In this document: one piece after another, positions 16,570 through 48,897 of the stretch
Layout of the letters: every line of letters begins with the position of its first letter
Numbering within the stretch: the stretch's first letter is position 1
Virus record (IMG/VR): IMGVR_UViG_3300035703_000010
Span: 124,001-188,000 of that record
Direction: 5' to 3' (one strand)
DNA from: a virus
DNA length: 64,000 bases
The notes under the pieces: model-generated
What the model was told of the DNA's origin: nothing
Databases searched by the model: none
Seen by the model: only the letters and a program-made list of their open reading frames with translations
Program-made: the position numbers and the translations under genes

Positions 16570-16934
16570 TGGATAAGCTTCAAGAAATGTGGAATCAACA
16601 AGAAAAATTTATGGAATTGCTTCAATCACGAAGAGGATTTCCTGAATTTCCACTTGACATGAAATCAAAAACCGGTCAAAAGTTCCTCAAAGGAATTACT
16701 CATGAATGTATGCATGAGTTATTTGAAGCTAATCTTCTTTTGAAAAACTCAAAAGACCATAGAGCTACTGACGTAAAAGAATTTAATCGTGAAGATTACA
16801 TTGAAGAACTTGTCGATGCTCTTCACTACTTTTTTGAAATTGCAATTTGTAGTGGTGTTACTATGGATGAACTTCATGAAGCATACATGAAGAAAGGTAG
16901 AATTAACATCAATAGAATTGAAAATGGATATTAA
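16569..16934 (+). CDS. MazG/dUTPase-like all-alpha NTP pyrophosphohydrolase
   Basis: A 121-residue protein. It has the pattern HECMHELFEAN (ExxxE), REDYIEELVDALHYFFEIA (ExxD) and a C-terminal KGRININRIENGY, typical of the all-alpha NTP pyrophosphatase superfamily of phages (MazG-like or dimeric dUTPase-like). It would hydrolyse a (d)NTP to the monophosphate. The ATG at 16569 follows a GAGG Shine-Dalgarno. Confidence 0.7.
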   Translation: MDKLQEMWNQQEKFMELLQSRRGFPEFPLDMKSKTGQKFLKGITHECMHELFEANLLLKNSKDHRATDVKEFNREDYIEELVDALHYFFEIAICSGVTMDELHEAYMKKGRININRIENGY

Positions 16935-25198: not shown

Positions 25199-26203
25199 AT
25201 GGCTAAAGGATTAGACGTCGGTACATCATTTATAGTTCTTGCTGAAGAAGGCGCAAAAGGAAAAGTTACATACAAAGATTTCCGCGATGCTTTTTATGTC
25301 ATCAAACCTACAACTCCAATTGCAACAAAGATGATTGAAAAGGGATTAGCAGGAAAAACTTTCGTTAAGGATGCCGATGGTTCTTTCATCATCCTTGGAA
25401 AAGACGCAATTGAGAAGGCAGTCGAGAGAAACGATTCAGCTAAGAGACCGATGTATAAAGGCGTAGTTTCTTCAAAAGAAAAAGATGCAAGAAGAATTTT
25501 GACTTATATCCTTAAAGAAGTATCAGGAACACCAGCAGAACCAGGAGAAAAATTAGTCTTCTGCGTACCAGCTCAACCTGTCGATCAAGAAGATGAGGAT
25601 TTTGACGTCGGATACCATGAAGACGTAATCGTAAAACTTCTTACAGAAGTTGGGTATTCAGCACGTGCAATAAATGAGGCCGAAGCTCTTTGTTATTCTG
25701 AACTAGAAAAGGATGATTATACTGGAGTGGCTCTATCATGGGGCGCGGGAATGGTTAACGTTTGCGTAATGCTCAATGGTGAACCTGTCGTTACTTTCTC
25801 TACAACGAAGTCTGGTGACTGGGTTGATCGCATGGCTGCAGTGGCTACTGGAGAACCTGATTCTATCGTTCAGGCAGAAAAGGAAAATGGAGATTTTACC
25901 GTAGGTCAGCCGAATGACAATCAAGTTCTTGCTGCGGTTGCTTCTTATTATGATCGTCTAATCGATTACACGACGAAGCAATTGGCATCATCCATGGAAG
26001 GACATAAGTCTATTCCAAAGTTCAAGGATCCGCTTCCAGTCGTCGTTGCTGGAGGAACCTCAAAAGCAAAAGGATTCGTCGATCTTTTTGCAAAGAAACT
26101 TAATGAGAATGGTTTTCCGCTTCCTGTCAAAGAAGTTCGTCATGCAGCTGATCCACTTCATGCTGTTGCTCGCGGTTGCCTAATCGCTGCGCAAATTATG
26201 TAA
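25199..26203 (+). CDS. Actin/Hsp70-superfamily ATPase (ParM/MreB-like)
   Basis: A 334-residue protein. It has the phosphate-1 motif GLDVGTSFIVLA, a connect-1-like EAEALCYSE, phosphate-2 ALSWGAGMVNVCVM, and the adenosine motif VVVAGGTSKAKGFVDLF, in the order expected for actin-fold ATPases. Size fits ParM/FtsA/MreB-type filament proteins better than DnaK. Phage actin-like proteins can organise DNA or replication sites; that role here is inference. An independent terminator follows. Confidence 0.75.
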   Translation: MAKGLDVGTSFIVLAEEGAKGKVTYKDFRDAFYVIKPTTPIATKMIEKGLAGKTFVKDADGSFIILGKDAIEKAVERNDSAKRPMYKGVVSSKEKDARRILTYILKEVSGTPAEPGEKLVFCVPAQPVDQEDEDFDVGYHEDVIVKLLTEVGYSARAINEAEALCYSELEKDDYTGVALSWGAGMVNVCVMLNGEPVVTFSTTKSGDWVDRMAAVATGEPDSIVQAEKENGDFTVGQPNDNQVLAAVASYYDRLIDYTTKQLASSMEGHKSIPKFKDPLPVVVAGGTSKAKGFVDLFAKKLNENGFPLPVKEVRHAADPLHAVARGCLIAAQIM

Positions 26204-26311: not shown

Positions 26312-29005
26312 ATGACTACAAAAGTTCCTTCACGATTCGTAGGCCTTCACAGCCACTCGGGGTTTAGTACCTTTGATGGACTTGATTATCCGCAAGAACA
26401 CATCGATTACGTTCTAGAGAACGGTATGGATGCCTGGTCGTTGACTGACCATGGTCACATGAACGGATTCTGCCATGCATATCTTCATGCCGAGAAGATG
26501 AAAAAATCAGGTAAGAACTTCAAGTTCATTCCTGGCTGCGAGATGTACGTCCATCCTGATCTAAAACAATGGCAGATCGATCTCGATAAGTCGAGAGAAA
26601 AACCGATCAAGGACGAATCTATCCTCACACCCCTCGCTGCGATCGTTGACGGTAACGATGAAACGACTGACATCGGTACCGATGAAGCCGCATTGACCAT
26701 CGAAAACGAGGAGGAAACAAAATCAGGCAAGTACAACGACCCGATCAAACGTCGGCATCATCTCGTTGTCCTACCGAAAACATCAATTGGCCTACAAAGG
26801 TTATTCCATCTAGTTTCTCGAGGTTATTTGGAGGGCTTCTATAGGTTCCCACGAGTTGATTATGCGATGTTGAAGGAAGCCGCAAAGGGAGGTCATCTCA
26901 TGATTTCAACAGCATGCCTAGGTGGTGTGCTGAGCTATGACGTCTTCTCAAAGGTTCAACGCGTCAAGTTCGATGACCTATCACACAAACTTCTTGATGA
27001 TAGGAGCTTGCTTGAGTCAACCTTGCTTGAGATGGGTAACACATATGACAAATTGGTTAATGCTGTAGGACGAGACAATGTTTGCCTTGAGCTACAATTC
27101 AACAAACTTCCAGCCCAACATCTTGTTAACCGCGCAATTCTTGAATTTGCGAAGAAGAATTCATTGACTGATCGACTCGTTGTAACTTGCGATTCTCATT
27201 ATTCTCGTCCAGACAACTGGAAAGAGCGTGAGATCTACAAGAAGCTAGGATGGCTTAATTACCAAAACTTCGATCCGAACATGCTGCCGAAGTCGAAGGA
27301 CGATCTGAAGTGCGAGTTGTATCCAAAGAACGCACCTCAGGTCTGGGATTCCTACCTGTCCACGTCTGAAGACATGTCATTCTATGATGATGATGTTGTT
27401 CGTGAAGCAATCGAGCGGACTCATGACATCGTCCACAATGAAATCGGCGATATCCATCCTGATAAGGAGATGAAGCTACCATCCTACGTCATCCCTGAAG
27501 GATTCACTGAAGATAAAGCATTGGTCGATGCATGTAAGAAAGGTCTCATTTGGCGAGGGCTCGATGACAAGCCTGAGTACATCGAACGTATCAAGTATGA
27601 GCTATCGATCATCAAAGGTAAGAAGTTCTCACGCTACTTCTTGACGATGAAGGCGATCATGGATTTGGCACGAGAACATATGTTGATCGGGCCAGGTCGC
27701 GGATCTGCTGCAGGTTCTCTCGTTGCTTATGTTCTTGGTGTTACTAACCTTGACCCTATTGAATACGACTTATCATTTGAACGCTTCCTTAACCCATCTC
27801 GACAAGGCGCTCCTGATATCGATTCTGACATTGGAGATCGCGATAAACTAATCGAGCTCATGCGCGAAAACTTTGGTAATAACAATGTTATCCCAATTTC
27901 TAACTACAATACTTTTAAGTTAAAGAGCCTCATTAAAGACATCGCGCGGTTCTACAACATCCCATTTGAAGAAGTCAATGCAGCCTTAGCTCCCGTTGAA
28001 GATGACGTAAAGAAAGAGGTCTTTAAGCCAGGAGTTGATAAGAATCTTTTCGTCTTGACTTATGAAGATGCGATGAAGTATTCAAAGTCGATGCAAGACT
28101 TCGTCGCAGCGCATCCAGAGGTTGCAGAACCTATCGAGATCTTATTCAAACAAAACCGATCTCTCGGCCGACATGCGGGTGGCGTCATCGTGTCGGAGAA
28201 CGTTGCAGAGAGGATGCCTCTTATTCTTGCTCGTGGCGAACCTCAAACCCCATGGGTCGAAGGTATGCACTATAAACACCTAGAAGAGTTCGGCTGGATC
28301 AAATTCGATCTACTAGGTCTTGAAACCCTGCGCATTATCGAACGAGCTATCTACCTGATTCTGCAACGTCGAGAAGGTGTAGCAAATCCAACATTTAAGG
28401 ATGTGAAGGCTTGGTTCGACAAGCATATGGATCCTAAGAATATCGATCTCAATGATCAAAGGGTGTATGAATACGTTTATCATGAGGGACGATTTGCTGG
28501 TGTGTTCCAGTGTACGCAACCTGGTGCTCAACGATTGTTCACTAAGGCAAAGCCTCGCAGCATCATCGACATTGCAACTTTGACATCGATCTATCGTCCT
28601 GGTCCTCTAGCGGCCAATGTCGATAAGATCTATATCGGCGCCAAGAACGAACCTGATAAGATCGATTACCAGCACCCTTTGATCAAGAAGGTGCTTGAGT
28701 CTACATACGGATGTTTACATGGATCAACTGTTATTACAACTGATATTGGAGATATTACGATTGAAAAAATCGTAGAAGATCAGTTAGTCGGAACAAAATT
28801 GCCATCTTTTAACGAAGAATCTTGCGAGATTGAACAAGACGAAATTGTTGCTGCAGTTTGCACTGGCGTTCAAGAGACTCTAACGATTGAACTTGAAGAT
28901 GGAAAAACTATTCGTTTAACATCAGATCATAGAGTGTACACAACTAGAGGCTGGGTCGAGGCTGGAGATTTGACTGCAGAAGACGAAATTTTTGGAATTG
29001 AATAG
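26312..29005 (+). CDS. dnaE: DNA polymerase III alpha, N-terminal part fused to split-intein N-half
   Basis: An 897-residue protein. Residues 1-800 are the N-terminal two thirds of a bacterial replicative polymerase: a PHP domain (GLHSHSGFSTFDG, LTDHGHMNG), the palm with PGRGSAAGSLVAYVLG and catalytic D502-I-D504, and ending in LESTYG. Residue Cys801 starts intein block A (CLHGSTVITTDIGDITIEKI), with block B-like LTSDHRVYTTRGW near 887, then a stop. In intact DnaE the STYG segment continues into the motif xIxYQEQ, which here resumes in the gene at 29923. The half protein cannot be a complete polymerase by itself; trans-splicing is expected. Confidence 0.93.
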   Translation: MTTKVPSRFVGLHSHSGFSTFDGLDYPQEHIDYVLENGMDAWSLTDHGHMNGFCHAYLHAEKMKKSGKNFKFIPGCEMYVHPDLKQWQIDLDKSREKPIKDESILTPLAAIVDGNDETTDIGTDEAALTIENEEETKSGKYNDPIKRRHHLVVLPKTSIGLQRLFHLVSRGYLEGFYRFPRVDYAMLKEAAKGGHLMISTACLGGVLSYDVFSKVQRVKFDDLSHKLLDDRSLLESTLLEMGNTYDKLVNAVGRDNVCLELQFNKLPAQHLVNRAILEFAKKNSLTDRLVVTCDSHYSRPDNWKEREIYKKLGWLNYQNFDPNMLPKSKDDLKCELYPKNAPQVWDSYLSTSEDMSFYDDDVVREAIERTHDIVHNEIGDIHPDKEMKLPSYVIPEGFTEDKALVDACKKGLIWRGLDDKPEYIERIKYELSIIKGKKFSRYFLTMKAIMDLAREHMLIGPGRGSAAGSLVAYVLGVTNLDPIEYDLSFERFLNPSRQGAPDIDSDIGDRDKLIELMRENFGNNNVIPISNYNTFKLKSLIKDIARFYNIPFEEVNAALAPVEDDVKKEVFKPGVDKNLFVLTYEDAMKYSKSMQDFVAAHPEVAEPIEILFKQNRSLGRHAGGVIVSENVAERMPLILARGEPQTPWVEGMHYKHLEEFGWIKFDLLGLETLRIIERAIYLILQRREGVANPTFKDVKAWFDKHMDPKNIDLNDQRVYEYVYHEGRFAGVFQCTQPGAQRLFTKAKPRSIIDIATLTSIYRPGPLAANVDKIYIGAKNEPDKIDYQHPLIKKVLESTYGCLHGSTVITTDIGDITIEKIVEDQLVGTKLPSFNEESCEIEQDEIVAAVCTGVQETLTIELEDGKTIRLTSDHRVYTTRGWVEAGDLTAEDEIFGIE
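28712..29002 (+). other. Split intein, N-terminal half (IntN)
   Basis: Encodes 97 residues from the nucleophile Cys1 to the stop. Blocks A and B are visible; the block B region has TxxH-like TSDHRVY. It ends without a linker or endonuclease domain, as in naturally split inteins. Confidence 0.9.
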
Positions 29006-29048
29006 ACATATGGGTATATTTATCTTCCAAGAAAGAGGCTCTTGGAAG

Positions 29049-29954
29049 ATGAGAACTTGTGAATGTTGTGATAAAAAATTTGTTTATACAGGACCAAAAG
29101 GAAAAAATTATCCCGCAAAGACTTGCAGCGCAGAATGTTATAAGATATTAAGATCAAAAAAAATATCTCAATCAAACATCGATAGAAGGATACACGAAAA
29201 AGTAGAAAAGATTTGCGAAATTTGTGGTACGATAATCATAACAAATGATACAGAGAACCAACGCATAACTTGCTCTAAGAAATGTCATTCTAAGAGATTA
29301 TCGAAATTATACGCAGGAAGAAAAATAACTGAAGAGTGGCGACAAAATCAGAATAAGTCAAAGACTAAAGACAAAATTGTAAAGCATGGAGATTTTTCAT
29401 GTGATAAATGTCAAAAACATTTTGATACCAACACTTCGCTTAGATCTCATAGATCATATTGTACTCCTGGAAATGAAGGTCATATTTGTTGCGAAATATG
29501 CAATAAGAGTTTTTCTACGCGAGGGTACAAGATCCATTTTAAGAGTCATGATTTAATATGGAGATCGAAGACTACAAGTTCTCTTCAAAAATCTCTACTA
29601 ACAAGAACGAAATGTCAGACTACCTCTAAATCAGAGTTAGAATTTTTTGAAAAATTAAAGTCTTTGTTGGGTGATGATGTTGTACACAAGTTTAAAATTG
29701 AAGGAATTACTCATGAATATGATTTTTTTGTTCCTTCAAAAAATGTTATCATAGAGTTTGATGGTGATTATTGGCATGGCAATAAGAAGCTATACGAGTT
29801 ATCTTCTAGAATGAAACGTCAATATCAGATTGATAAAGTGTGGAATGAAAAAGCAATAGCTGCTGGGTATAGAATAATAAGAGTTTGGGCATCAGAGTCA
29901 AAAGATTTTAAGTTGGAAAATTATGTTAACACCCTTGAAAATAAAGTCGATTAA
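29049..29954 (+). CDS. Vsr-like homing endonuclease with zinc-finger motifs, between intein halves
   Basis: About 301 residues. The ATG at 29049 follows AAAGAGG (29032-29038). The N-terminal half has four Cys-pair zinc modules (CECCDKKF, ICEICG, SCDKCQKHF with a C2H2-like end, ICCEICNKSF). The C-terminal domain (about 190-301) has ITHEYDFFVPSKNVIIEFDGDYWHGN and RIIRVWASE, the catalytic pattern of the Vsr-like PD-(D/E)XK fold used by EDxHD homing endonucleases of fractured genes. It should cut intein-less dnaE alleles to spread the cassette. An ATG at 28992 inside the IntN end is the alternative start. Confidence 0.88.
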   Translation: MRTCECCDKKFVYTGPKGKNYPAKTCSAECYKILRSKKISQSNIDRRIHEKVEKICEICGTIIITNDTENQRITCSKKCHSKRLSKLYAGRKITEEWRQNQNKSKTKDKIVKHGDFSCDKCQKHFDTNTSLRSHRSYCTPGNEGHICCEICNKSFSTRGYKIHFKSHDLIWRSKTTSSLQKSLLTRTKCQTTSKSELEFFEKLKSLLGDDVVHKFKIEGITHEYDFFVPSKNVIIEFDGDYWHGNKKLYELSSRMKRQYQIDKVWNEKAIAAGYRIIRVWASESKDFKLENYVNTLENKVD

Positions 29955-30036
29955 ACGTGACGTACCTGCAAAAGTTTATGATATTCAAACCAAGAAAAAT
30001 CATAACTTCATTGCAAATGGCTTCTTAGTTCATAAT
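29923..30036 (+). other. Split intein, C-terminal half (IntC)
   Basis: Encodes up to 38 residues. Block F (VYDIQTKKNHNFIANG) and block G (FLVHN followed by Cys+1) are complete, so the residues needed for splicing are present. Confidence 0.9.
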
Positions 30037-31206
30037 TGCATAATTTTTCAAGAGCAAACTATGAAGTTATGTTCTGTCGTTGCTGGGTTCCCGGAGGCTG
30101 AAACTGACACGATTCGTAGAAACATCATGAAGCGTTCTGCGTCTAAAAAGGATGCAGCTGCTGCAGACGCGAAGAAGGCAAAAGAAGACTTCGTCGCCGG
30201 AGCGATGAAGAACGGTGTGCCTGAAAAGGTGGCTGATGAACTATACGAGAAGATTCTCTTCTTCTCTGGCTACGGCTTTAACGCTTCTCACGCAGTGTCT
30301 TACGCAATTGATTCATATTACTGTGCCTGGCTTCTCACCTACTTTGAGGAGGAATGGCTATGCGCTTACCTCGAGTCGATGTCAGGAAATGATGAAAAGC
30401 GTGCTAAGGCATTCTCTGAAGTCAAGGCATTAGGTTACAAGATCGTCAACATCGACATCAACTATGCAACGAAGAGCTGGACGATCCTGGATGGTAAACG
30501 ATTCATGCCTAGCTTCCTTTCATGTAAGGGTGTAGGGGAATCCGCAGTAGAAGAAATCATGGAAAATCGTCCGTATAAATCAGTGGAAGATATGTTATGG
30601 AATGAGGATGGGTCATGGAGGCATTCCAAGTTCAATAAACGTGCCTTGGAGGCCCTCATTGCAATTAAGGCATTTGATTCTCTTGATTGTATCGGTCATG
30701 ATAGGACTTTCACCGGATACAAACACATGAGTGAGATCTTGATCAACAGAAACGGCGATATCAAGAAACATACAAAGAAGAATCCGACTGCAGGAATCGA
30801 AGCATTCCGTGAAGCTTTGATCGATACGAAGAACATGGATGAATGGTCCAGATCAGAATTGGTAGATAACAGCATAAAGTATCTCGGTTCATTCAACGCT
30901 GCGATGCTGATGCCAGAAGAGATCTTACAAAAGCTTGAGAGCAGAGGAGTCAAGTCTGTTGATGATTTATCTGAAAGCGACATCTATTGGTTTATCGTTT
31001 CTGATACAAAGCCTAAGAAAACGAAGACAGGAAAAAACTATTTGTTGTTAACGATTACTGGGCTTGGAGGACAAAACCATAGGTTGTTCTGTTGGGGATG
31101 GAATGGCGAAACAGAAATTCCCAAGTACAGCGTTTGCCTTTCAGAAATCACCGTAGATGGCTACGGTAATAAAACTTTCATGAGTAAGATTAAAGTCCTT
31201 GATTGA
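29923..31206 (+). CDS. dnaE: Split-intein C-half fused to C-terminal part of DNA polymerase III alpha
   Basis: A 427-residue protein. Residues 1-38 are IntC: KVYDIQTKKNHNFIANGFLVHN (blocks F and G), ending His-Asn before Cys39 (+1). Then the extein resumes with CIIFQEQTMKLCSVVAGFP, GYGFNASHAVSYA and further fingers/OB-fold regions up to the end. The start may be ATG 29923 or TTG 29935; both overlap the endonuclease gene end. Spliced to residues 1-800 of the upstream product, this gives about 1189 residues, a normal alpha-subunit length. Confidence 0.92.
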   Translation: MLTPLKIKSIKRDVPAKVYDIQTKKNHNFIANGFLVHNCIIFQEQTMKLCSVVAGFPEAETDTIRRNIMKRSASKKDAAAADAKKAKEDFVAGAMKNGVPEKVADELYEKILFFSGYGFNASHAVSYAIDSYYCAWLLTYFEEEWLCAYLESMSGNDEKRAKAFSEVKALGYKIVNIDINYATKSWTILDGKRFMPSFLSCKGVGESAVEEIMENRPYKSVEDMLWNEDGSWRHSKFNKRALEALIAIKAFDSLDCIGHDRTFTGYKHMSEILINRNGDIKKHTKKNPTAGIEAFREALIDTKNMDEWSRSELVDNSIKYLGSFNAAMLMPEEILQKLESRGVKSVDDLSESDIYWFIVSDTKPKKTKTGKNYLLLTITGLGGQNHRLFCWGWNGETEIPKYSVCLSEITVDGYGNKTFMSKIKVLD

Positions 31207-31217
31207 AGAGGTATAAT

Positions 31218-31739
31218 ATGGGAATGGTTATTTTATTTGACGGGCCTGACAAGGTCGGTAAAACTGAAATGGTCAAAGAACTTTCTAAAAGGCTAAACGT
31301 TCCTTCGTTTAAGAATGAATCTGAATGGAAAGCTTTTTCTGATGATCCTGATTATTTCGTTAACGCTTTAAGATACGGTGATCCATACTTTTATAATTTT
31401 CTAAAATCTACAGGGACATCAGTCATTCTAGATAGATCATATCCTTCAGAATGGGTGTACTCTAAAGTTTACGGAAGAAAGACTGATCAAGAAGCGTTGA
31501 GGCATATCGACTCTTTGGCTGCATCGTTTGGAGTAAAGATTATTGTTCCATATCGTACTTCTTACGATGGATTGCATGATGATATGCATGACATAGATTC
31601 TGAACAAATGAAAAAGATTTCAGACGTTTATATCGAGTTTATTGAATGGACGAAGTGTAATGTCCTACGTCTGTGTGTAGATTCAGAAGACCTTGATTGG
31701 GAAATGAAAACCATTCTAAAATTTATTGGGAAAAATTGA
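31218..31739 (+). CDS. P-loop deoxynucleoside monophosphate kinase-like protein
   Basis: A 173-residue protein. Walker A is DGPDKVGKTE at the N-terminus and SVILDRSYPSEWVYSKVYG matches the TMP-kinase-type DR motif. AGAGG (31207-31211) precedes the ATG at 31218. It is the second dNMP kinase-like gene of the window. Next to sugar genes and near the ThyA-family enzyme it could be the kinase for an unusual nucleotide, but this is inference. Confidence 0.75.
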   Translation: MGMVILFDGPDKVGKTEMVKELSKRLNVPSFKNESEWKAFSDDPDYFVNALRYGDPYFYNFLKSTGTSVILDRSYPSEWVYSKVYGRKTDQEALRHIDSLAASFGVKIIVPYRTSYDGLHDDMHDIDSEQMKKISDVYIEFIEWTKCNVLRLCVDSEDLDWEMKTILKFIGKN

Positions 31740-31743
31740 TATT

Positions 31744-32769
31744 ATGAAACTAGGAATCAGTTATTGGGGATTTTGTGAGCCATTTGAAGCATCTAAAGAG
31801 GCAAAGACTCCTGATGGTCATCGTTACGGTCGGCCTATCATGGTAGATGCCTTACTTAATCAAGGGCATGAAGTGTATGCGCTGCAGGAAAGAAGAGAAT
31901 CTACTCCATATCCTGGAATCACATATGACATGGGATTTCCTGATATTGACGTTCTATTTGTAGAATGGCGTTGGAAGACATACAAGAATTCTGGACCAAA
32001 CAAGTTTGAAAAAGATTTGGACAGACAGTTTGAACTATTGACTCATTATCATGGAAAGATTCCTGTCGTTATTTGGGATTGTGATTATAAAGTCACACAC
32101 TTAGATGAAATGATGTGGCCTGAAGCGATTATCGCAGATCCAGCTTTTGAGCCCAGGTATCTTACAAGAAAACGAGAAAGAATAATGTTCTGGACGGATT
32201 GGAAAAAGCTTCTTCCAGCTGTTTCTACATCATTTGAATATGGGTATGTAGGAAATAACTATGAGCGTCCTCAAGCTTTTGAAAAGTATTATTCTTTTCC
32301 GTCGTCGACTCTTCGCAATTATGGAATTCAAACGACAGTTCATGGAAATTGGTTGGAAGTTTCACCAGAAAGAGAATCTCCGAAAGTATTGATTTCTTCT
32401 CACCCTAGTATTTCATTTGCTCAAAGATTGAATTTCTATGAATCGATGAAGAGATTAAACTCATTTATTTGTACGACACATATTACAAAACCAGAATATG
32501 CTCAAAGAGGTTTTGCTTCTCCTAGATATGTTGAGAATATCGTTTCGAACGTGCCAGCTTTGGTTCCAAAAGAATTTTTGAAGTCGAATCTATTAGGGAA
32601 AGACTGGGCAGTTGAAGGTGGAGATTCTGTCATTGAAAAAGTCAAATTAATTTTTTCAATGAATTTAGAAGAAAGAAATTCGTTAATTTTAGAACAGGAA
32701 AATAATTTAAAATCTAGCGGTGTATTTTCAGTAAGTAATGTTGTAGATTTTCTTGAGTCGGTTAAGTGA
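31744..32769 (+). CDS. GT-B-type glycosyltransferase-like protein
   Basis: A 341-residue protein. It has a Rossmann-like N-terminal half (KLGISYWGFCEPFE, ALLNQGHEVYALQ, IDVLFVEWRW) and a C-terminal half with ISFAQRLNFYESMKRLNSF and a segment on FASPRYVENI, resembling glycosyltransferases of the CgeB/GT4 type that end in a conserved His/Arg/Glu region. It lies immediately before a sugar epimerase gene. It may glycosylate DNA, a virion protein or a host surface. The call rests on fold-like pattern, not on a decisive motif. Confidence 0.5.
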   Translation: MKLGISYWGFCEPFEASKEAKTPDGHRYGRPIMVDALLNQGHEVYALQERRESTPYPGITYDMGFPDIDVLFVEWRWKTYKNSGPNKFEKDLDRQFELLTHYHGKIPVVIWDCDYKVTHLDEMMWPEAIIADPAFEPRYLTRKRERIMFWTDWKKLLPAVSTSFEYGYVGNNYERPQAFEKYYSFPSSTLRNYGIQTTVHGNWLEVSPERESPKVLISSHPSISFAQRLNFYESMKRLNSFICTTHITKPEYAQRGFASPRYVENIVSNVPALVPKEFLKSNLLGKDWAVEGGDSVIEKVKLIFSMNLEERNSLILEQENNLKSSGVFSVSNVVDFLESVK

Positions 32770-32776
32770 GGAAAAA

Positions 32777-33772
32777 ATGAAAGTATTAATTACAGGTATT
32801 GCTGGTCTTCTTGGTGCAAACTTTTCTCGTTATTTGCTTGATAAAGGCTATAAAGTAGTTGGAATCGATGATTTAAGCGGCGGGTATGAAGATTCAGTAC
32901 CAAAGGATGCTACTTTTTATAAGCTTGACTTGACCGACCAAAAGAAGGTTGACGAGATTTTTAACGCAGAAAAGCCTGATTACGTTTTTCATTTTGCAGC
33001 ATATGCAGCTGAAGGTCTTAGTCCATTCATAAGAAATTACAATTACACAAATAATGTATTAGCTTCAACCAATGTAATCAACGCTTGCGTAAATCATGAT
33101 GTAAAGAAAATCATCTTTACGTCGTCAATGGCTGTTTATGGAGTAGGAAATCCTCCATTTACCGAAGAGCAACTACCAACGCCTGAAGATCCATATGGTA
33201 TTGCAAAATATGCAGTTGAAATGGATCTGAAGTTGGCTCATGAAATGTTTGGTCTTCGATACAGCATTGTTCGACCGCACAATGTAGTTGGAATCTACCA
33301 GAACATTTGGGATCGTTATCGCAACGTAATTGGAATTTGGATTCGAAAAGCAATGAATGGCGAACCACTTTCGATTTTTGGAGATGGTACACAAGTTCGA
33401 GCATTTTCAGACATTAAGTTTTATTTGGAACCATTTGAAAAATTAATGGATTCTTACGATGGAGAAATCTTCAACATCGGTGCTGACAAACATTACACAA
33501 TTAATGAAGCTGCAGACACAGTAATCGGCGTTGCAAAAGAGCTAGGAATTAACGCAACTAAAGTTCATCTAGAAAAGAGGAATGAAGTTCATACAGCATA
33601 TTGTGATCATACTAAGGCTCATAAGCTCTTGTCTTTTGAGGACAAAACAGATTTGCGAGAAACCGTTATGAAGATGTTTAAGTGGGCCATGGAACAGCCA
33701 AATCGTCCTACAAAGAGCATGAACTATGAAATTGAAAAGAACATGTATTCTTTTTGGAAGAACACAAAATGA
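32777..33772 (+). CDS. NAD-dependent nucleotide-sugar epimerase/dehydratase
   Basis: A 331-residue extended SDR protein. It shows the glycine motif TGIAGLLGAN, VVGIDDLSGG, FHFAAYAAEG, the catalytic SSMAVYG with Ser, and YGIAKYAVE with the YxxxK pair. This fits UDP-glucose/UDP-galactose 4-epimerase-type enzymes. GAGG at 32767-32771 selects the ATG at 32777. A second SDR of the same class is encoded at 35515. Confidence 0.88.
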   Translation: MKVLITGIAGLLGANFSRYLLDKGYKVVGIDDLSGGYEDSVPKDATFYKLDLTDQKKVDEIFNAEKPDYVFHFAAYAAEGLSPFIRNYNYTNNVLASTNVINACVNHDVKKIIFTSSMAVYGVGNPPFTEEQLPTPEDPYGIAKYAVEMDLKLAHEMFGLRYSIVRPHNVVGIYQNIWDRYRNVIGIWIRKAMNGEPLSIFGDGTQVRAFSDIKFYLEPFEKLMDSYDGEIFNIGADKHYTINEAADTVIGVAKELGINATKVHLEKRNEVHTAYCDHTKAHKLLSFEDKTDLRETVMKMFKWAMEQPNRPTKSMNYEIEKNMYSFWKNTK

Positions 33773-34548
33773 TCACGAATTTATCTTTTCCTGAAAATTT
33801 AAAAGATAGAGAGAAATTTATTTTTGATCAAGTTTTGTTAGGAAACTTTGATGCTTCATGGGTTCCTTTAACCTATGATATTTCTGGTAAAAAAGTTATT
33901 TTGAACGTTATGTCAGACGCGCTAAAAGTTGGAGGAATTAGAGTAAACGTCTCTGCGTTCCTCCAACAACAGCTAGCAGATGTTTTTGATGCTTCTTTGT
34001 TAACTGCGTTAGTTGCAGATTTGATGTACGTTCACGCGTCGAATATCCTAAATCCAGTTCCACAACCGATATCATCAACAGTGTCTTCTATGATATCTCA
34101 TGATGATAAAGTGACTAAACAATTGAAGTCTTATAATGGCGGAATAGTTTCTACAGTGGGAAAACATTGGATTTTAGATAAAAAAATAGATCAGCAACCT
34201 AGTAAAGCTTGCAATTATGGATGGCATTTTACAGGATCTAATTTTCAAGGAATTAATGGATTTCCTTCTACAACATTACAAAAAACGTTAGATGGTAAAC
34301 CAATCAAAGTGATTCAGCCGAATGCTACTGCTCATGATGCAAAGCATTCTGATTATTCACAAATTTGTCAATTGGTTTCTCAACAATGTTGGATTAATGG
34401 AGTAGAACATAGATTTTCTGATCTATTGCAAGATTCTTCATTGTGTAATTTGGTCAACCACAATGGTACATTAAAAAATACTAGACAACCTGGAGTTCAA
34501 AAGATTTCTGGCCAAGTTGTGTTATTTCCAACAACAATTTCACCTTGA
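33769..34548 (+). CDS. Conserved protein with NYGWH and HxxxHxDYSQ motifs, function unknown
   Basis: A 259-residue protein coupled to the epimerase (ATGA overlap). The C-terminal half shows GGIVSTVGKHWIL, CNYGWHF, VIQPNATAHDAKHSDYSQ and TRQPGVQ. I recall a similar Gly-Trp-His ... Gln-Pro ... His ... Asp-Tyr-Ser pattern in uncharacterised bacterial secreted proteins; the His/Asp cluster could be a metal or catalytic site. No signal peptide is evident. Confidence 0.5.
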   Translation: MITNLSFPENLKDREKFIFDQVLLGNFDASWVPLTYDISGKKVILNVMSDALKVGGIRVNVSAFLQQQLADVFDASLLTALVADLMYVHASNILNPVPQPISSTVSSMISHDDKVTKQLKSYNGGIVSTVGKHWILDKKIDQQPSKACNYGWHFTGSNFQGINGFPSTTLQKTLDGKPIKVIQPNATAHDAKHSDYSQICQLVSQQCWINGVEHRFSDLLQDSSLCNLVNHNGTLKNTRQPGVQKISGQVVLFPTTISP

Positions 34549-34555
34549 GGATATT

Positions 34556-34753
34556 ATGCCAACTTATGAATATCAATGCGAATCTTGTTCATTTTTTATG
34601 GAAAAAGTTCAATCAATAAAGGATGATCCTCTATCTGATTGTCCTCATTGTAATAAAAACTGCTTAAAACGCTTGATTTCAGTAGGAGGAGGATTTACTT
34701 TAAAGGGTGGAGGTTGGTACAAGGATCTTTATTCTTCTACTCCTTCGAAGTAG
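34556..34753 (+). CDS. FmdB-like small zinc ribbon protein
   Basis: A 65-residue protein: MPTYEYQCESCSFFME followed by CPHCNK, the four-Cys zinc ribbon of the FmdB/CxxC-CxxC regulatory protein family, then a Gly-rich end (GGGFTLKGGGWYKD). It may bind nucleic acid. Its 3' end overlaps the converging minus-strand gene by 17 bases. Confidence 0.8.
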   Translation: MPTYEYQCESCSFFMEKVQSIKDDPLSDCPHCNKNCLKRLISVGGGFTLKGGGWYKDLYSSTPSK

Positions 34754-35456
34754 ATCCCAACTTTTTTACGATGTTTCTGCTTGTTCTAGCAGCAGGATGA
34801 GATGGTTTAATTAAATTATGTTCGTCTTCATCAATTTTTGACTCAAATTTAGGTTTGATTTCTCCTGTCTCACAATTCAATATTATGTTGTATCCACCTT
34901 TTCCAAGCTTTAAAGGCTCAGTTAATGTGGATAGATAATCATATCTTCCTGCATTTATCATTTCTTTGTCAAACCATTGTTCTAGAACGAAATTAGAAAC
35001 GCTGACATTAGTACCATTGACATTAATTTCATATGAATTGCTTTCAACAGGATCACATAATTCAACAGCTACAAATGTTTCGTCTCCTCTATGCGACCAT
35101 AAATTGATATAAGGATTATAAAAAGTTTCAAGTATTTCATGAGAAAGAACTACGGAGACGGATTTTGATCCAGATAATACCGTTCCTCCATTGTCTAAAA
35201 CAGGATTAACAAAAACTCTACCCCAAACTTTTCCATCTGGGTCTTGTGTGTGGTATCCTAATGCGCTAGCATGATCTGAATCATCCATTATCACCATTGG
35301 AAATCCATCGTTGCCTTCTATTTTTATTTCCCATGGTAGTCTTCCTAAAATAGGACATGCATGATCTCTAAGTTGAATTCTGCACGCCTCGACCATAAGT
35401 TCGACATCTTGAGGAGATATTCTGTTTGATTTGTTTATGACGTTGAAAGTTTTCAT
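34737..35456 (-). CDS. Putative metallopeptidase-like protein (SHE motif)
   Basis: A 239-residue minus-strand protein. VSVVLSHEILETFYNP (His106-Glu107) resembles the zinc-binding helix of a family of putative phage and plasmid metallopeptidases with an SHExxE helix rather than full HExxH. VAVELCDPVES follows, as in those proteins. Function is not established. It is divergent from the epimerase gene at 35515. Confidence 0.5.
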   Translation of the reverse strand: MKTFNVINKSNRISPQDVELMVEACRIQLRDHACPILGRLPWEIKIEGNDGFPMVIMDDSDHASALGYHTQDPDGKVWGRVFVNPVLDNGGTVLSGSKSVSVVLSHEILETFYNPYINLWSHRGDETFVAVELCDPVESNSYEINVNGTNVSVSNFVLEQWFDKEMINAGRYDYLSTLTEPLKLGKGGYNIILNCETGEIKPKFESKIDEDEHNLIKPSHPAARTSRNIVKKLGSTSKE

Positions 35457-35514: not shown

Positions 35515-36483
35515 ATGAAAACCAAGAAAGCACTATTAACAGGCGCAGCTGGATTTATTGGAAGCAACTTGGCAAAAGAACTTTTGTCTAAAGGCGTAGA
35601 CTTAGATGTTGTTGATGATCTTTCAAGCGGTCATGTAGAGTTTTTACCTCAGCAGCTTCAAGAAACGTTAATAAAAGAGGATTTTTCATCACAAAATGTT
35701 TTAGATTTGATTAAAAACAAAAAATATGATGCTGTTTTTCACATTGCAGCAATTCCTCGAGTCAGCTATTCTGTAGATTTTCCAGTACAAACAAATGACA
35801 ATAACGTATCTAAGACCCTGTCATTAATTGATGCTTGTAGAGGTAATGTAGGAAGATTTGTTTTTGCTTCTTCATCATCAGTGTACGGCGATACGAATAT
35901 TTTACCAACTCCTGTTACATGTGAAAAAAATCCTAAATCTCCATATGCATTACAAAAATCTATCATAGAAGATTATTTGAAAATTTATTACAATTTGTAT
36001 GGATTGGACTCTGCTTGCTTAAGGTTTTTTAACGTATTCGGTCCTCATCAGCTTGGAAATTCTCCGTATTCTACTGCTTTAGGGGCTTGGTTGACTGCAA
36101 TCCATTCTGGAAATCAAATGCGATCTGATGGAGACGGATCACAATCCAGAGATTTATGTTATGTTGATAACGTTGTTGACGTTTGTATAAGAGCAGCAGA
36201 GTCCCAACAAGAATTAAAAGCCGTTAAATTAAACGTAGCTTGCGGAGTAAGAACTACGAATAAAGAAATTCTTTCTTACCTTTTATCCAAATATCCAAAT
36301 GCAAAATATTATGATGCACCATGGAGACCAGGTGACGTAATGCATACATTAGCTGATATTTCTATGACAAAGGAAGTTTTAGGTTATGAGCCTTTAGTCC
36401 TTCCTTGGGAAGGGATTGATAAAACCATTAAATGGTATGATGAAAATTGGGATATGATTAAAACTCTAGGTCTTTCAAAATGA
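35515..36483 (+). CDS. NAD-dependent epimerase/dehydratase (second copy)
   Basis: A 322-residue extended SDR protein with TGAAGFIGSN, VVDDLSSGH, FHIAAIPRV, ASSSSVYGD and PYALQKSIIED (YxxxK), plus FFNVFGPHQ. It is close to UDP-glucose 4-epimerases or related dehydratases. Its stop overlaps the start of the ThyA-family gene, tying it to nucleotide metabolism or to making a sugar donor for modified bases. Confidence 0.88.
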   Translation: MKTKKALLTGAAGFIGSNLAKELLSKGVDLDVVDDLSSGHVEFLPQQLQETLIKEDFSSQNVLDLIKNKKYDAVFHIAAIPRVSYSVDFPVQTNDNNVSKTLSLIDACRGNVGRFVFASSSSVYGDTNILPTPVTCEKNPKSPYALQKSIIEDYLKIYYNLYGLDSACLRFFNVFGPHQLGNSPYSTALGAWLTAIHSGNQMRSDGDGSQSRDLCYVDNVVDVCIRAAESQQELKAVKLNVACGVRTTNKEILSYLLSKYPNAKYYDAPWRPGDVMHTLADISMTKEVLGYEPLVLPWEGIDKTIKWYDENWDMIKTLGLSK

Positions 36484-37481
36484 AAGTTTACGAGAATTTC
36501 ACTGAAGCTTACGTCGACATTGTCAAAGATGTCTATACAGAGCCTGAATTCATTTCGTCTCCTCGCGGAATGAAGATCAAGGAGATCTTGGGATACCAAT
36601 TCAAGATCCTTAATCCTCGAAACAGAATTCCTTATGTTCCTGGAAGAGAGCTGTCGATCCACTACATGATCGCAGAGCTTCTTTGGTATTTGAGCGGAAA
36701 TGATTCAACGGATTGGATCTCGAACTATTCTGCTTTCTGGTCAAAGATCTCAGATGACGGCAAGACGGCCAACAGCGCTTATGGCGCTCGTATTTTCAAG
36801 CCTCATGATAGAATCGCAGCTAAGGTAAAACAGGACTGGACCCAATGGAATTATGTCGTAAATGAACTAAAGTCCGACCCTGATTCTCGCCGTGCCGTTG
36901 TTCATATCAGGTCTCCGCAGGATTCCATTCTTGCTAGCCTTGATGTGCCGTGTACTTTATCTCTTCAATTCTTTTTGAGGAATGACAAGGTTCACATGGT
37001 AACATCCATGAGATCATCCGATGTTATCCTTGGTTTAGCTTATGATGTTCCAGCATTTACTATCTTCCAAGAACTTTTGGCTCTTCAACTTACTCTAGAG
37101 CTAGGTCGTCCTATTGGTCTTGGGACATACACTCATTTAAGCGCTTCTCTTCATTTGTACGAGAGGCATTTTAAAATGGCAGAAAAAATACTTGAGGAAG
37201 ATAAGAAGCAGGATTATAGAAATGTTTTAGAGATGCCTCCTATGCCTTCTATGCCTCCGCTTGATGATCTGATGGTAGCGGAACGTGAGATTAAAAAGTG
37301 TATGACGGTTCCTGTTCTTTCAAGGGCGATTAATAACATCAACTTGAAAAGTGATTATTGGAACGATTGGTGTAGAGTTTTAGCATCTCATAAAGCTATT
37401 AAACTAAACGATGAACAAGCTTGTAACGAATTACTTTCTAATACAAAATTTGAAGGATACAGGTATTTCATAAAATCATGA
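36480..37481 (+). CDS. ThyA-family enzyme, probably dCMP hydroxymethylase (or dCMP methylase)
   Basis: A 333-residue thymidylate synthase superfamily protein. The active-site Cys is C158 (DVPCTLSLQF), R178-S179-x-D181 follows 20 residues later (MRSSDVILGL), and H/Y of the dUMP-ribose site are in LSASLHLYERH. At the position of TS Asn177 (31 residues after Cys) there is Asp189 (GLAYDVPAF). Asp at this position is known to give dCMP rather than dUMP specificity in T4 dCMP hydroxymethylase. ThyX elsewhere covers dTMP synthesis. The exact reaction remains inferred. Confidence 0.75.
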   Translation: MKVYENFTEAYVDIVKDVYTEPEFISSPRGMKIKEILGYQFKILNPRNRIPYVPGRELSIHYMIAELLWYLSGNDSTDWISNYSAFWSKISDDGKTANSAYGARIFKPHDRIAAKVKQDWTQWNYVVNELKSDPDSRRAVVHIRSPQDSILASLDVPCTLSLQFFLRNDKVHMVTSMRSSDVILGLAYDVPAFTIFQELLALQLTLELGRPIGLGTYTHLSASLHLYERHFKMAEKILEEDKKQDYRNVLEMPPMPSMPPLDDLMVAEREIKKCMTVPVLSRAINNINLKSDYWNDWCRVLASHKAIKLNDEQACNELLSNTKFEGYRYFIKS

Positions 37482-38056
37482 CTACGACATTTACTGTATT
37501 TTGTGGACCCATGTTTTCTGCTAAGACCACATCTTTGTTGTCTGTTTTAGACAGGTTTAAATATCAAGGTAAGAAGATTGCAGTTTTTAAACCCATGCTA
37601 GATGATCGATACAGTGTAGATAACATATCAACTCATGGAGGATGGAAAATTCCTGCAACTTGCGTAAAATTAGGAACCGATATTCTTGAGCATCTTGCAA
37701 ATATGGATGAAAATCCTAATGTAATTGCAGTAGATGAAGCTTTTATGATTCCTGGAGTTGCCGATGTTCTTATTTGGTTGTATCGAAGCGGTTATTCTAT
37801 CGTTGTTTCCAGTTTAGACTTGTCAGCAACTGGAAAGTCATTTAATGAAATCGAAAAAATGCTTCCTTGGGCAACTAAGGTCGAAAAACTAAGCGCAGTT
37901 TGTACAGTATGTAATAAAGATGCTTTTTACACATATAAAAAGCAAACAGGCGGAGATGAGATTGAAGTAGGAGGCGTTGAATTGTATGAGCCTAGATGTT
38001 CTAGATGCCATCCTATAATTCTAAATCAAGATAGAAATTATGCCATGAAGGATTGA
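37478..38056 (+). CDS. tdk: Thymidine kinase
   Basis: A 192-residue type II thymidine kinase. It shows FCGPMFSAKTTSLL (P-loop), KPMLDDRYS, IAVDEAFMI (DE motif), and a C-terminal zinc site CTVC...CSRC; GYSIVVSSLDLSATGKSF matches the lasso-region DLD-type motif. It phosphorylates salvaged thymidine. Start overlaps the preceding stop. Confidence 0.9.
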   Translation: MTTTFTVFCGPMFSAKTTSLLSVLDRFKYQGKKIAVFKPMLDDRYSVDNISTHGGWKIPATCVKLGTDILEHLANMDENPNVIAVDEAFMIPGVADVLIWLYRSGYSIVVSSLDLSATGKSFNEIEKMLPWATKVEKLSAVCTVCNKDAFYTYKKQTGGDEIEVGGVELYEPRCSRCHPIILNQDRNYAMKD

Positions 38057-38059
38057 TTT

Positions 38060-38539
38060 ATGTCAAATTCTTTAGAACGTAGTATTCAAAAATTGAGCGT
38101 TTTCATGAAAATGTGCAATGAATTGTCTACGCTGTCATATGATGACAAATATAAAGTTGCTTCTATAATAATAACGAAGGATTATAGAGAAGTTTGTGCT
38201 ATAGGATATAATGGAGGATACAAAGGCGGTCCTAATAAAAGATCATCTTTAGAACAAGGAAAATCAGGGTTTTTGCATGCTGAAGAGAATGCATTGTTCC
38301 ATTTATGCAAACCTTATGAACTTAGAGGTGATCTTTTGATGCTATGCACTCATAAACCATGTTCAATGTGCGCAAGAAGAATTGTCAATAGTGGGATTAA
38401 GAACATTATCTATTATTCTGATTATATTGATGCAGAAGCCGCTTCCGATGATATTTTTAAGGTTACTGGAACTTCTTGTGTTAAATTTGATCAACTTTTG
38501 CAGAATCCAGCTATTATCCTGAATATTCTAGAGTCCTGA
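38060..38539 (+). CDS. dCMP deaminase-family zinc deaminase
   Basis: A 159-residue protein with the zinc deaminase motifs HAEENAL and THKPCSMCARRIVNSGI (C-x2-C). It converts dCMP to dUMP for thymidylate synthesis. In phages making modified cytosine this enzyme can also adjust the C pool. It directly follows thymidine kinase. Confidence 0.88.
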   Translation: MSNSLERSIQKLSVFMKMCNELSTLSYDDKYKVASIIITKDYREVCAIGYNGGYKGGPNKRSSLEQGKSGFLHAEENALFHLCKPYELRGDLLMLCTHKPCSMCARRIVNSGIKNIIYYSDYIDAEAASDDIFKVTGTSCVKFDQLLQNPAIILNILES

Positions 38540-42993: not shown

Positions 42994-43752
42994 ATGAATG
43001 TTCAAGAAGCCATAGTAGCAGCCGTTCAGTTTGAACCTAAAATACTTAAAGTTCATGAAAACCTTGGTACGGCAGTTCAGCTTGTTCATGAAGCAGCTGC
43101 TAAAGGAGCTTCTGTTATCGTTCTTCCTGAACTTTGTATTAGCGGATACGCTTTAAGAAATTCTTCTGAGGCAATGGAATGTGCTCAAACAAGAGATGGG
43201 TATCAAACTCAAGCCTTTAAAAGAATTGCTGAAAATTATAATTGTCATGTAGTTTTAGGATACGTAGAACTTAGAGACGGTAATCTTTATAATTCTGCTG
43301 GAGTAATAGGTCCTACTGGGTTGGTTTCAAACCATCAAAAACATAATCTTTGGGGTAGTGATTATCTTTGGGCAACCCCATCTGATGCAATCAATCCAGT
43401 AGTGATTACAAGAGCTGGAAGATTAGGCACACTTATTTGCCGCGACGCGATGAACAATTATAGAAATTCTTATAAGTTTTTTAATGAAAACCATCGTTTC
43501 TATAAAAAAGGATCTATAGATACATTAGCACTATTAACCAACTGGAGCGGTGAGTATGGCTATCCAGATAATAACTGGGTTGATTTAGCTGAAGAAACAT
43601 GTTCAAACGTCATCGTTTCTAACAGGGTTGGCAAAGAAAGAGACTTAAGTTTCAAAGGCGGATCATGCATCATCGATAAAAATCGAAAGATTTGGTCTAA
43701 TGGTTCATCATTTACCGAATCAGCAGTCGTCGGTGGAGTCATTCTTTTATGA
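42994..43752 (+). CDS. Nitrilase-superfamily carbon-nitrogen hydrolase
   Basis: A 252-residue protein with the catalytic triad E46 (VLPELCISGY), K116 (NHQKHNLW) and C149 (GTLICRDAMN). The family hydrolyses nitriles or amides, or acts as the glutaminase part of NAD synthetase. No synthetase domain is attached. The substrate cannot be predicted; an amidase role in N-containing metabolite or NAD metabolism is possible. Confidence 0.85.
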   Translation: MNVQEAIVAAVQFEPKILKVHENLGTAVQLVHEAAAKGASVIVLPELCISGYALRNSSEAMECAQTRDGYQTQAFKRIAENYNCHVVLGYVELRDGNLYNSAGVIGPTGLVSNHQKHNLWGSDYLWATPSDAINPVVITRAGRLGTLICRDAMNNYRNSYKFFNENHRFYKKGSIDTLALLTNWSGEYGYPDNNWVDLAEETCSNVIVSNRVGKERDLSFKGGSCIIDKNRKIWSNGSSFTESAVVGGVILL

Positions 43753-48018: not shown

Positions 48019-48897
48019 CTACTTTACTTCAGGATCGCTACAACATCTAAATCCTTGCTGGTAAAACGTGTGTAATTCTCCATGAGTTCTAATTGAACTT
48101 CTACATTGGGCTTTGGTACCAGACCAATATCCTCCTTTTAATATCGACCGGTATTTGTTTGAAATTGACGTCACAGTCCATTCTTCAACGTTTCCTATCA
48201 TGTCATGAACGTTGAATGGGCTTGCACACTTAGTTCGTGATCCTGAAAGATACCCTTGCCATAAGTGGTTTAACTCTATGCCACTTTTCATCGTTCCCCT
48301 TGGGAACATTAATCTATTATCATAAGCCTTCCATGGTTTGTCGATATTGCAACTTTCAGCATCTCGAATGTATCCATTCGGAAAAGGTAACATTTCTTCA
48401 CCTTCGCATGCAAATGTCCATTCGTCTTCTGAACACAATCTTTTTCCTTTTAATTCGCACAATTCTTTTGATTCTTCCCATGTTGTCATAACCCATGGCG
48501 CTGCACCGTCACGGTTTGGCCATTCGTATGGGTCGATACAAAAATGCATATCTTTTCTAGGAAGATCTTTTTTTATTTTTTCCCATTTTGCTTGATCAAA
48601 TTCAAGACAATATTCTTTTTTTTCTGACCATTTTTTACATGTAGATTTTTGCAAATTTTCTATATTGTCATATGAAAATGGATTGGAATCACGGGTTATT
48701 CCCATTTTTCCTTTAATTTCTATCATATCATTTCCAGGACAATTTTGTGAACCTTCATGAACAATTCCTGGATCTTTTTCAGCAATCCAGTATTTCTTAT
48801 CGATAAACTTCCAATTTATAATGTTTGATTCGATTCGAGGGCAGTTTTCTGTGCATTCTGCAAATAGAAGTTGTGATAGAACAATAACAAAATTCAT
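48019..48897 (-). CDS. FGE-sulfatase (SUMF1) domain protein with N-terminal signal
   Basis: A 292-residue minus-strand protein. The first residues (MNFVIVLSQLLFA) form a short signal peptide. Then WEESKELCELKGKRLCSEDEWTFACEG, NVHDMIGNVEEWT, SILKGGYWSG and QGFRCC are the hallmarks of the formylglycine-generating-enzyme/SUMF1 fold. Several members do not make formylglycine but bind or act extracellularly. It is Cys-rich, as exported proteins often are. In a phage it is unusual; a tail- or envelope-associated role is possible. Confidence 0.78.
   Translation of the reverse strand: MNFVIVLSQLLFAECTENCPRIESNIINWKFIDKKYWIAEKDPGIVHEGSQNCPGNDMIEIKGKMGITRDSNPFSYDNIENLQKSTCKKWSEKKEYCLEFDQAKWEKIKKDLPRKDMHFCIDPYEWPNRDGAAPWVMTTWEESKELCELKGKRLCSEDEWTFACEGEEMLPFPNGYIRDAESCNIDKPWKAYDNRLMFPRGTMKSGIELNHLWQGYLSGSRTKCASPFNVHDMIGNVEEWTVTSISNKYRSILKGGYWSGTKAQCRSSIRTHGELHTFYQQGFRCCSDPEVK

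Follow-up and report, generated by a model that had tools for sequence, protein, structure and literature searches.

A predicted dCMP hydroxymethylase and a candidate 5-hydroxymethylcytosine glycosyltransferase in the replication operon of an IMG/VR virus

Introduction

Modified bases such as 5-hydroxymethylcytosine (5hmC) usually protect DNA against restriction. Here we analyze a stretch of 64,000 nucleotides of DNA from a large uncultured phage (the window; bases 124001–188000 of the 204,651-base IMG/VR record IMGVR_UViG_3300035703_000010) that carries a gene of the thymidylate synthase (TS) family, predicted to encode a deoxycytidine monophosphate (dCMP) hydroxymethylase (dCH), and, in the same operon, a candidate glycosyltransferase for the resulting base.

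Several described systems bear on this locus. A hydroxymethylation signature has been reported for TS-family enzymes, in which an Asp (or Glu) precedes the active-site Cys by three residues and a Ser/Thr-x-Tyr motif is present, whereas TS has Leu at the former position (PMC6400193). MilA, a cytidine monophosphate (CMP) 5-hydroxymethylase from Streptomyces rimofaciens, is described as having an extra C-terminal helical domain, and the preference of its A176S/K133R mutant was reversed to dCMP (PMC5175136). The MetaGPA study linked carbamoyltransferases and TS-family proteins with Asp at the position of Asn177 of Escherichia coli TS to modified phage DNA; a carbamoyltransferase characterized there produced 5-carbamoyloxymethylcytosine from DNA containing 5-hydroxymethyldeoxycytidine (5hmdC) and from its triphosphate, 5hmdCTP, and was reported as inactive on 5-methyl-dCTP (5mdCTP) and 5-hydroxymethyl-dUTP (5hmdUTP) (PMC8670742). 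As for sugars, phage RB69 arabinosylates hydroxymethylcytosine (PMC6024577), and Shewanella phage Thanatos has a pentose on cytosine (PMC12838424).

Results

A TS-family protein with the residues of a dCMP hydroxymethylase

The gene in question is an ATG-initiated open reading frame (ORF) with the following features:

36480–37481, plus strand: predicted dCMP hydroxymethylase (dCH), 333 amino acids, MilA-like with a C-terminal extension (Pfam PF00303, PDB matches, residue signature)
36774–36782, plus strand: codons of Ser99-x-Tyr101, counterpart of T4 dCH Ser94-x-Tyr96 (alignment; role from PMC6400193)
36942–37046, plus strand: active-site stretch (alignment with E. coli TS, T2 Td, SPO1 gp29, RB3 gp42 and MilA), with the codons of Asp155 (36942–36944), Cys158 (36951–36953), Arg178 (37011–37013), Ser179 and Asp189 (37044–37046)

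An earlier reading made from the letters alone (hereafter the sequence-only reading) had assigned the product to the ThyA family, and its match to Pfam Thymidylat_synt (PF00303; E 5.7e-31, 108.1 bits against a cut-off of 24.3), the sole PF00303 match in the 204,651-base record, bears this out. For the residues we aligned the window protein with 112 relatives, MilA and E. coli TS, which left 81 distinct rows after identical ones were collapsed and included E. coli TS, T2 Td, SPO1 gp29, RB3 gp42 and MilA as controls. The relatives were fetched with the dCH protein and with an alignment, using peptide patterns that left out Asp155 and Asp189. Cys158, Arg178 and Asp189 fall in the columns of E. 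coli TS Cys146, Arg166 and Asn177, so that the residues and spacings proposed by the sequence-only reading are correct, and catalytic columns are likewise hit by Glu66, Tyr101, Arg137, Ser179, Asp181, Gly185, His225 and Tyr227.

Having been fetched with the window dCH itself, the rows are enriched for close kin, and the Asn177 column, where T4 dCH has Asp179, holds Asp in 78 of the 81. Asn is found there in just three rows, those of E. coli TS, T2 Td and the deoxyuridine monophosphate (dUMP) hydroxymethylase of SPO1, so the column separates the TS and dUMP controls from the rest, in agreement with the earlier claim that Asp at this position marks enzymes acting on dCMP. A scan of bacteria and archaea found Asp there in 24 of 52 relatives. 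Three residues before the Cys, Asp (Asp155 in the window) occupies 79 of the 81 rows, with Leu in both TS rows, and Asp155 with Ser99-x-Tyr101 constitutes the published hydroxymethylation signature. Arg137 and Ser179 are the pair of the deoxyribose enzymes, as in T4 dCH and TS, whereas MilA has Lys133/Ala176.

Taken column by column, T4-type gp42 is matched at every diagnostic position (189, 155, 99-x-101, 137 and 179), whereas E. coli TS and T2 Td differ from the window protein at 99, 155 and 189, SPO1 gp29 at 99 and 189, and MilA at 137 and 179. In the Ser99 column MilA is not aligned consistently (Thr in one alignment, Gly in the other), which leaves the window's own residue unaffected. The TS equivalog cut-offs are missed by dCH, with 93 of 327 bits for NF002497 and 73.4 of 108.35 bits for TIGR03284. 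Because of Asp189, Asp155, Ser99-x-Tyr101 and Arg137/Ser179, the predicted substrate is dCMP and the predicted product 5-hydroxymethyl-dCMP (hm-dCMP). The sequence-only reading had suggested either a hydroxymethylase or a methylase: its choice of dCMP is supported by Asp189 and Arg137/Ser179, and of the two activities the hydroxymethylase is clearly favoured by Asp155 and Ser99-x-Tyr101. We are highly confident in this prediction of dCMP hydroxymethylase catalysis.

The best PDB matches of dCH are the MilA structures 5jnh and 5b6d (E 4e-45, residues 4–311), with T4 dCH far behind at 1e-12. The phmmer alignment to MilA reaches dCH residue 311 and spans the part where MilA has its additional helical domain at the C terminus. 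Given how far the MilA chains outscore T4 dCH among PDB relatives, the protein is, by sequence, built like MilA, with the extra C-terminal domain, and unlike the short T4 enzyme.

A glycosyltransferase-like neighbour in a position exchanged between relatives

Two genes upstream of dCH are central to what may happen to its product:

31203–31739, plus strand: small P-loop nucleoside/nucleotide kinase-like protein, candidate hm-dCMP kinase (phrog_761 thymidylate kinase, 1.6e-13)
31744–32769, plus strand: X347, GT-B glycosyltransferase-like protein, candidate 5hmC glycosyltransferase (profile, model and structure comparison)

X347, which the sequence-only reading had missed, is 341 amino acids long from its ATG and 347 from an upstream TTG. 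The window protein alone gave no family match in the library scans; three of five X347-type proteins scanned passed the PF13524 cut-off. With a 20-row profile, the only PDB match up to E 1 among 177,635 sequences was T4 DNA beta-glucosyltransferase (BGT; E 8e-5, two sequences). A structure model built from the 20-row alignment has a GT-B fold, with a predicted local distance difference test (pLDDT) score of 91.7 and a predicted template modelling (pTM) score of 0.90, whereas a two-sequence input reached only pLDDT 36.5. In VIA-align 2 the best match to the model was again T4 BGT (Z 22.4, root-mean-square deviation 3.4–3.5, 300–302 residues). Arg261 and Glu264 of X347, which do not vary across the 20 rows, align with Arg269 and Glu272 of BGT, the pair that binds uridine diphosphate (UDP).

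Gene neighbourhoods were compared across 42 loci, namely the window and 41 relatives (L023–L063, dCH 46–80% identical), the relatives being the most similar of 80 fetched loci and the 39 more distant ones being left out; gene families were clustered across these loci, and whole-record checks were made in 13 related records. Near the small kinase, exactly one of three unrelated proteins is found in 39 of the 42 loci: X347 in 27 (the window included), a protein of ~430 amino acids in 7 and a carbamoyltransferase in 5. Of the three loci without such a protein, L059 and L062 lie on contigs that stop shortly past dCH, and L061 has a 380-amino-acid protein that hhalign matches to X347 with a probability of 97.4%. 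After removal of near-copies (30 loci, dCH identity <97%) the counts are 17, 7 and 4, with 2 loci lacking a slot protein. Zero overlap was obtained in none of 200,000 independent shuffles, a procedure that ignores kinship, and at equal coverage limits exclusivity was also reached by four other triples, all of lineage-specific genes, and by 21 other pairs. Exclusivity alone is thus weak evidence, and what sets the slot apart is solely its number of switches on the dCH tree: slot state changes at least 7 times, against 3 for the other exclusive triples, and the pair of X347 and the 430-residue protein changes 5 times, against 1–2 for the 21 other pairs. Much of this tree is weakly supported; the branches with good support by themselves require at least 4 changes of X347, 2 of the 430-residue protein and 1 of the carbamoyltransferase. 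These changes, and the fact that L023 (X347), L025 (430-residue protein) and L026 (carbamoyltransferase) differ in the slot although their dCH proteins are all 77–80% identical to that of the window, indicate that the slot has been exchanged among close relatives. Over the whole length of the 13 records, X347 occurs in 8 and the 430-residue family in 4, never together; PF16861 occurs in 3, one copy being the slot gene and those in G007 and G012 lying far from dCH, with the slot otherwise occupied.

Searches that started from the slot proteins led back to dCH. X347, searched independently, has dCH nearby in 8 of 10 loci, the contigs of the other two ending too early, and the 430-residue family has it within ~4.3 kb in 10 of 10 loci, the dCH being a distant one of T4 type in 5 of these. 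The fold of X347 says glycosyltransferase, and the sequence match and gene context point to DNA. It is probable, we judge, that the 31744–32769 protein decorates 5hmC. Because the slot protein most resembles T4 DNA beta-glucosyltransferase, the DNA of the window phage probably holds glycosylated 5hmC, in which the sugar might be either glucose or galactose-type.

As for the other occupants, the 430-residue family, one member of which lies at L003:4952–6238, matched nothing in Pfam or PHROG and nothing convincingly in the PDB, and hhalign gave no link from it to X347 or to T4 BGT; judged by sequence and gene context only, it would probably be another type of DNA glycosyltransferase. The slot carbamoyltransferases are 32–33% identical over ~585 amino acids to the characterized 5hmC enzyme of PMC8670742.

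A further small protein of ~217 amino acids, here called tsl, accompanies the carbamoyltransferases. It keeps the D-x-x-C, the R-A-S-D and the following Asp of the TS family and is without the folate-binding half; copies lie at L026:5363–6016, L031:5371–6042, L032:5244–5891, L033:7334–7999 and L071:7179–7982. Across the neighbourhood set it occurs in 5 of 5 loci with a slot carbamoyltransferase and in 0 of 37 others, and the distant L071 also has it, next to dCH and a carbamoyltransferase. Compared with dCH by hhalign, it matches weakly (E 9e-4, probability 22.6%). Could tsl be a dedicated, degenerate dCH-like partner of carbamoylation?

Deoxynucleotide supply and the predicted pathway

The remaining genes of nucleotide and nucleotide-sugar metabolism are:

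9075–9557, plus strand: trimeric dUTPase (PF00692, E 1.2e-35)
14926–15585, plus strand: ThyX thymidylate synthase (TIGR02170, 109.2 bits against a cut-off of 87.9; Pfam Thy1)
15582–16178, plus strand: thymidylate kinase (PF02223, 1.7e-15)
16566–16934, plus strand: dimeric-dUTPase-family pyrophosphohydrolase, candidate dCTPase (PF08761, 26.0 bits against a cut-off of 22.9; phrog_12184)
32753–33772, plus strand: nucleotide-sugar epimerase 1, dependent on nicotinamide adenine dinucleotide (nearest UDP-glucose 4-epimerase, 4zrm)
35515–36483, plus strand: nucleotide-sugar epimerase 2 (nearest 6dnt, WbgU/WbpP type), its stop overlapping the dCH start
37478–38056, plus strand: thymidine kinase (PF00265, E 1.7e-38)
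38060–38539, plus strand: dCMP deaminase (PF00383; phrog_174, 1.2e-26)

The dCH start overlaps the stop of epimerase 2 (ATGA) and its stop overlaps the thymidine kinase gene by 4 bases, which places dCH inside an operon. Across the 42 loci, families of this neighbourhood recur to different degrees: polymerase III alpha in 41, the small kinase and the epimerase family in 39 each, dCMP deaminase in 38 and thymidine kinase in 24. A profile of 24 relatives of the small kinase matches YorR and deoxyguanosine kinase in the PDB. ThyX, the sole Thy1 match in the record, is encoded separately, as the sequence-only reading had noted in arguing that a second thymidylate synthase would be redundant; the relatives agree, with ThyX in 12 of 13 records and one PF00303 protein in each of the 13. 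The PF08761-type pyrophosphohydrolase has one match in all 13 records, above the cut-off in 10, and is taken as a candidate dCTPase because a trimeric dUTPase is encoded as well.

By analogy with the T4 enzyme and from the residues present, Cys158 would attack C6 of dCMP while Asp189 protonates cytosine N3, methylene-tetrahydrofolate would donate a methylene group to C5, and water activated by Asp155 would convert it to hydroxymethyl. The hm-dCMP would then be phosphorylated by phage (candidate kinase 31203–31739) and host kinases and polymerized in place of deoxycytidine triphosphate (dCTP), with dCTP kept low by the candidate dCTPase (16566–16934) and dCMP deaminase and with ThyX making thymidine monophosphate. 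Finally, the base would be decorated by the slot enzyme, in the window phage the GT-B protein X347. The residues, folds, gene order and slot exclusivity are computed; from them and from known systems we infer the chemistry, the order of steps and the protection from restriction. As a whole, the explanation that dCH makes hm-dCMP, which is polymerized and then decorated by the slot enzyme, here with a sugar, appears very likely, and the modification most likely shields the phage DNA from bacterial defences.

Weighing other readings

Three other functions for the enzyme were weighed. A dCMP methylase making 5-methyl-dCMP, as in Xanthomonas phage Xp12, would give DNA with 5-methylcytosine. In its favour, Asp at the Asn177 position suffices in TS mutants for the use of dCMP, with 5-methyl-dCMP as a possible product (PMC8670742). 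However, Asp155, Leu in TS, and Ser99-x-Tyr101 are the hydroxymethylase signature (PMC6400193), the slot of five relatives holds a relative of the carbamoyltransferase reported inactive on 5mdCTP (PMC8670742), and that slot carbamoyltransferase and the window's glycosyltransferase both require a hydroxyl as target; we consider a methylase very improbable. Still less probable is a MilA-like CMP hydroxymethylase that works in a nucleoside (small-molecule) pathway instead of on DNA. MilA is indeed the best PDB match and the C-terminal extension is common to both, but Arg and Ser replace MilA Lys133 and Ala176, the same swap turns MilA to dCMP (PMC5175136), and the surrounding genes form a DNA-replication and deoxynucleotide operon without antibiotic genes; Arg137 and Ser179 led us to reject a MilA-type CMP enzyme. 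The reading to which we give least credence takes Asp189 as neutral and the protein as a second TS or a dUMP hydroxymethylase, leaving T or 5-hydroxymethyluracil in the DNA. General libraries do name the family thymidylate synthase, and the dUMP hydroxymethylase SPO1 gp29 shares the Asp of the 155 column. Against this, Asp189 is present in 42 of 42 close-family loci and in all other aligned phage relatives but the uracil enzymes, ThyX is found in nearly all of the related records, the TS equivalog cut-offs are missed by far, and the characterized relative of the slot carbamoyltransferase rejects 5hmdUTP (PMC8670742). An ordinary TS was rejected on Asp189 and Asp155 (TS having Asn177 and a hydrophobic residue three before the Cys), and a dUMP hydroxymethylase on Asp189 (Asn in SPO1 gp29).

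The fourth alternative accepts dCH and concerns the slot proteins: X347 and the 430-residue protein would glycosylate virion or host surfaces, with hydroxymethylcytosine left undecorated, or carbamoylated only in some relatives. Several observations weigh on this side, or more generally against the pathway proposed above. Non-DNA enzymes match the X347 model nearly as well as T4 BGT (TarM Z 21.8, BshA 21.7, others within one Z unit), with T4 alpha-glucosyltransferase at Z 20.1, and because T4 BGT so barely exceeds other GT-B enzymes the fold alone does not show a DNA acceptor. The sequence match between X347 and T4 BGT spans the C-terminal 90 residues only (hhalign E 3e-4, probability 39.8%). 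Epimerases are present with every slot type, including genomes whose slot holds a carbamoyltransferase or the 430-residue protein, and are therefore not attributable to X347; a separate surface-sugar cluster in the record could use their sugars. The kinase (31203–31739) and dCTPase (16566–16934) assignments, made from sequence, are themselves weak. Surface glycosylation is nonetheless at odds with the mutual exclusion with a carbamoyltransferase at one place, through at least 7 changes, with T4 BGT as the sole PDB sequence match of the X347 profile, and with the presence of a neighbouring dCH in 10 of 10 loci of the 430-residue family and in all 8 X347 loci where this could be judged. We therefore regard it as unlikely, and prefer the reading of X347 as a candidate 5hmC glycosyltransferase. 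The idea that the epimerases supply the slot sugar was set aside as unsupported, since they are found with all slot types.

Other genes of the window and record

The sugar cluster just mentioned is large, lies on the minus strand at ~29–47 kb of record G000, outside the window (L014, L015), and comprises a DegT aminotransferase, a Polysacc_synt_2 dehydratase, a sugar nucleotidyltransferase and ORFs resembling glycosyltransferases by eye. Between the two epimerases lie two conserved proteins, 33754–34548 and 34737–35456 (minus strand), present in 11 and 12 of the 42 loci, neither with a Pfam or PHROG match.

DNA polymerase III alpha is split in the window (26312–31206) into ORFs 26312–29005 and 29923–31206, the N-part of an intein closing the first and the C-part of an intein opening the second, and an HNH-endonuclease-like ORF (28992–29954) lies in between. 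The gene is fractured and probably carries a split intein; in relatives L007 and L008 the polymerase is a single ORF. Directly upstream lies a Volactin-type actin (PF25216, E 1.1e-66; 25199–26203). Also encoded are a 416-amino-acid isocitrate lyase family protein (50670–51920, minus strand; E 4.5e-100), an unusual cargo for a phage, and an FGE-sulfatase-like protein (48019–48897, minus strand), a carbon-nitrogen hydrolase (42994–43752) and an IMP dehydrogenase/GMP reductase-like protein (23241–24317). Compared with phage sequences by megablast, 24 kb of window sequence gave no match.

Discussion

Because dCMP hydroxymethylases and the Asp177 rule were already known, dCH alone adds a member to a known kind. 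Its variant features are a long, MilA-type architecture combined with deoxyribose residues and the decorator slot in its operon, exclusive and repeatedly exchanged; most of the new information is carried by the neighbouring glycosyltransferase X347. No description of the exchangeable slot, the MilA-type dCH build or the X347 and 430-residue families was found in the open-licence literature searched.

Going further, we give about even chances to the view that this large-phage lineage has a fixed 5hmC operon with one exchangeable decorator position, at which at least three non-homologous chemistries (X347, the 430-residue protein, and carbamoyltransferase plus tsl) are swapped. Since the slot chemistries would be swapped repeatedly, the identity of the final base would change again and again between close relatives, probably under host defences that target modifications, and the DNA sugar of the window phage may be made by its own epimerases and not be plain glucose. 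If slot proteins act on 5hmC-DNA, the X347 and 430-residue families would be new DNA-decorating enzymes with value as reagents. The lineage would also amount to a natural experiment, in which near-identical phage backbones differ in the final base, so that the ability of each modification to evade a given Type IV or glycosylase-type defence would become directly testable.

Among known systems, T4 offers a close catalytic parallel: its gp42 (PDB 1b49; RB3 gp42 was used here) has the same diagnostic Glu, Ser-x-Tyr, Arg, Asp three before the Cys, Cys, Arg-Ser and Asp, and the gp42 gene adjoins that of the DNA beta-glucosyltransferase, a likeness to the window operon. The two enzymes are nonetheless distant, RB3 gp42 and dCH being 27% identical over 225 residues, the T4 enzyme having 246 amino acids against 333 with a long C-terminal extension in dCH, and the tree not grouping them together. 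T4 BGT (1bgt, 1nzd) has the GT-B fold in common with X347, at 13–14% identity and with sequence likeness confined to the C-terminal third. SPO1 gp29 shares the Asp three before the Cys, but has Asn at the cytosine/uracil column. In build, MilA is nearest, its match running through residue 311, and dCH differs from it by carrying Arg137/Ser179 in place of Lys133/Ala176, the state of the A176S/K133R mutant.

The only named phage whose match covers ≥80% of the dCH query is Bacillus phage G, whose gp319, annotated as thymidylate synthase, aligns with 98% coverage and 32.2% identity (E 1e-40, in two records of the phage). It has Asp at both diagnostic columns and an annotated alpha-glucosyltransferase gene ~3.3 kb away, but differs from the window in its Gly at the Ser99 column and in gene order. 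The MetaGPA system, in turn, places a TS-family Asp177 enzyme beside a carbamoyltransferase and a dCMP deaminase (PMC8670742); Xanthomonas phage Xp15 and five of the loci compared here have a MetaGPA-like arrangement, whereas the window has a glycosyltransferase in that slot.

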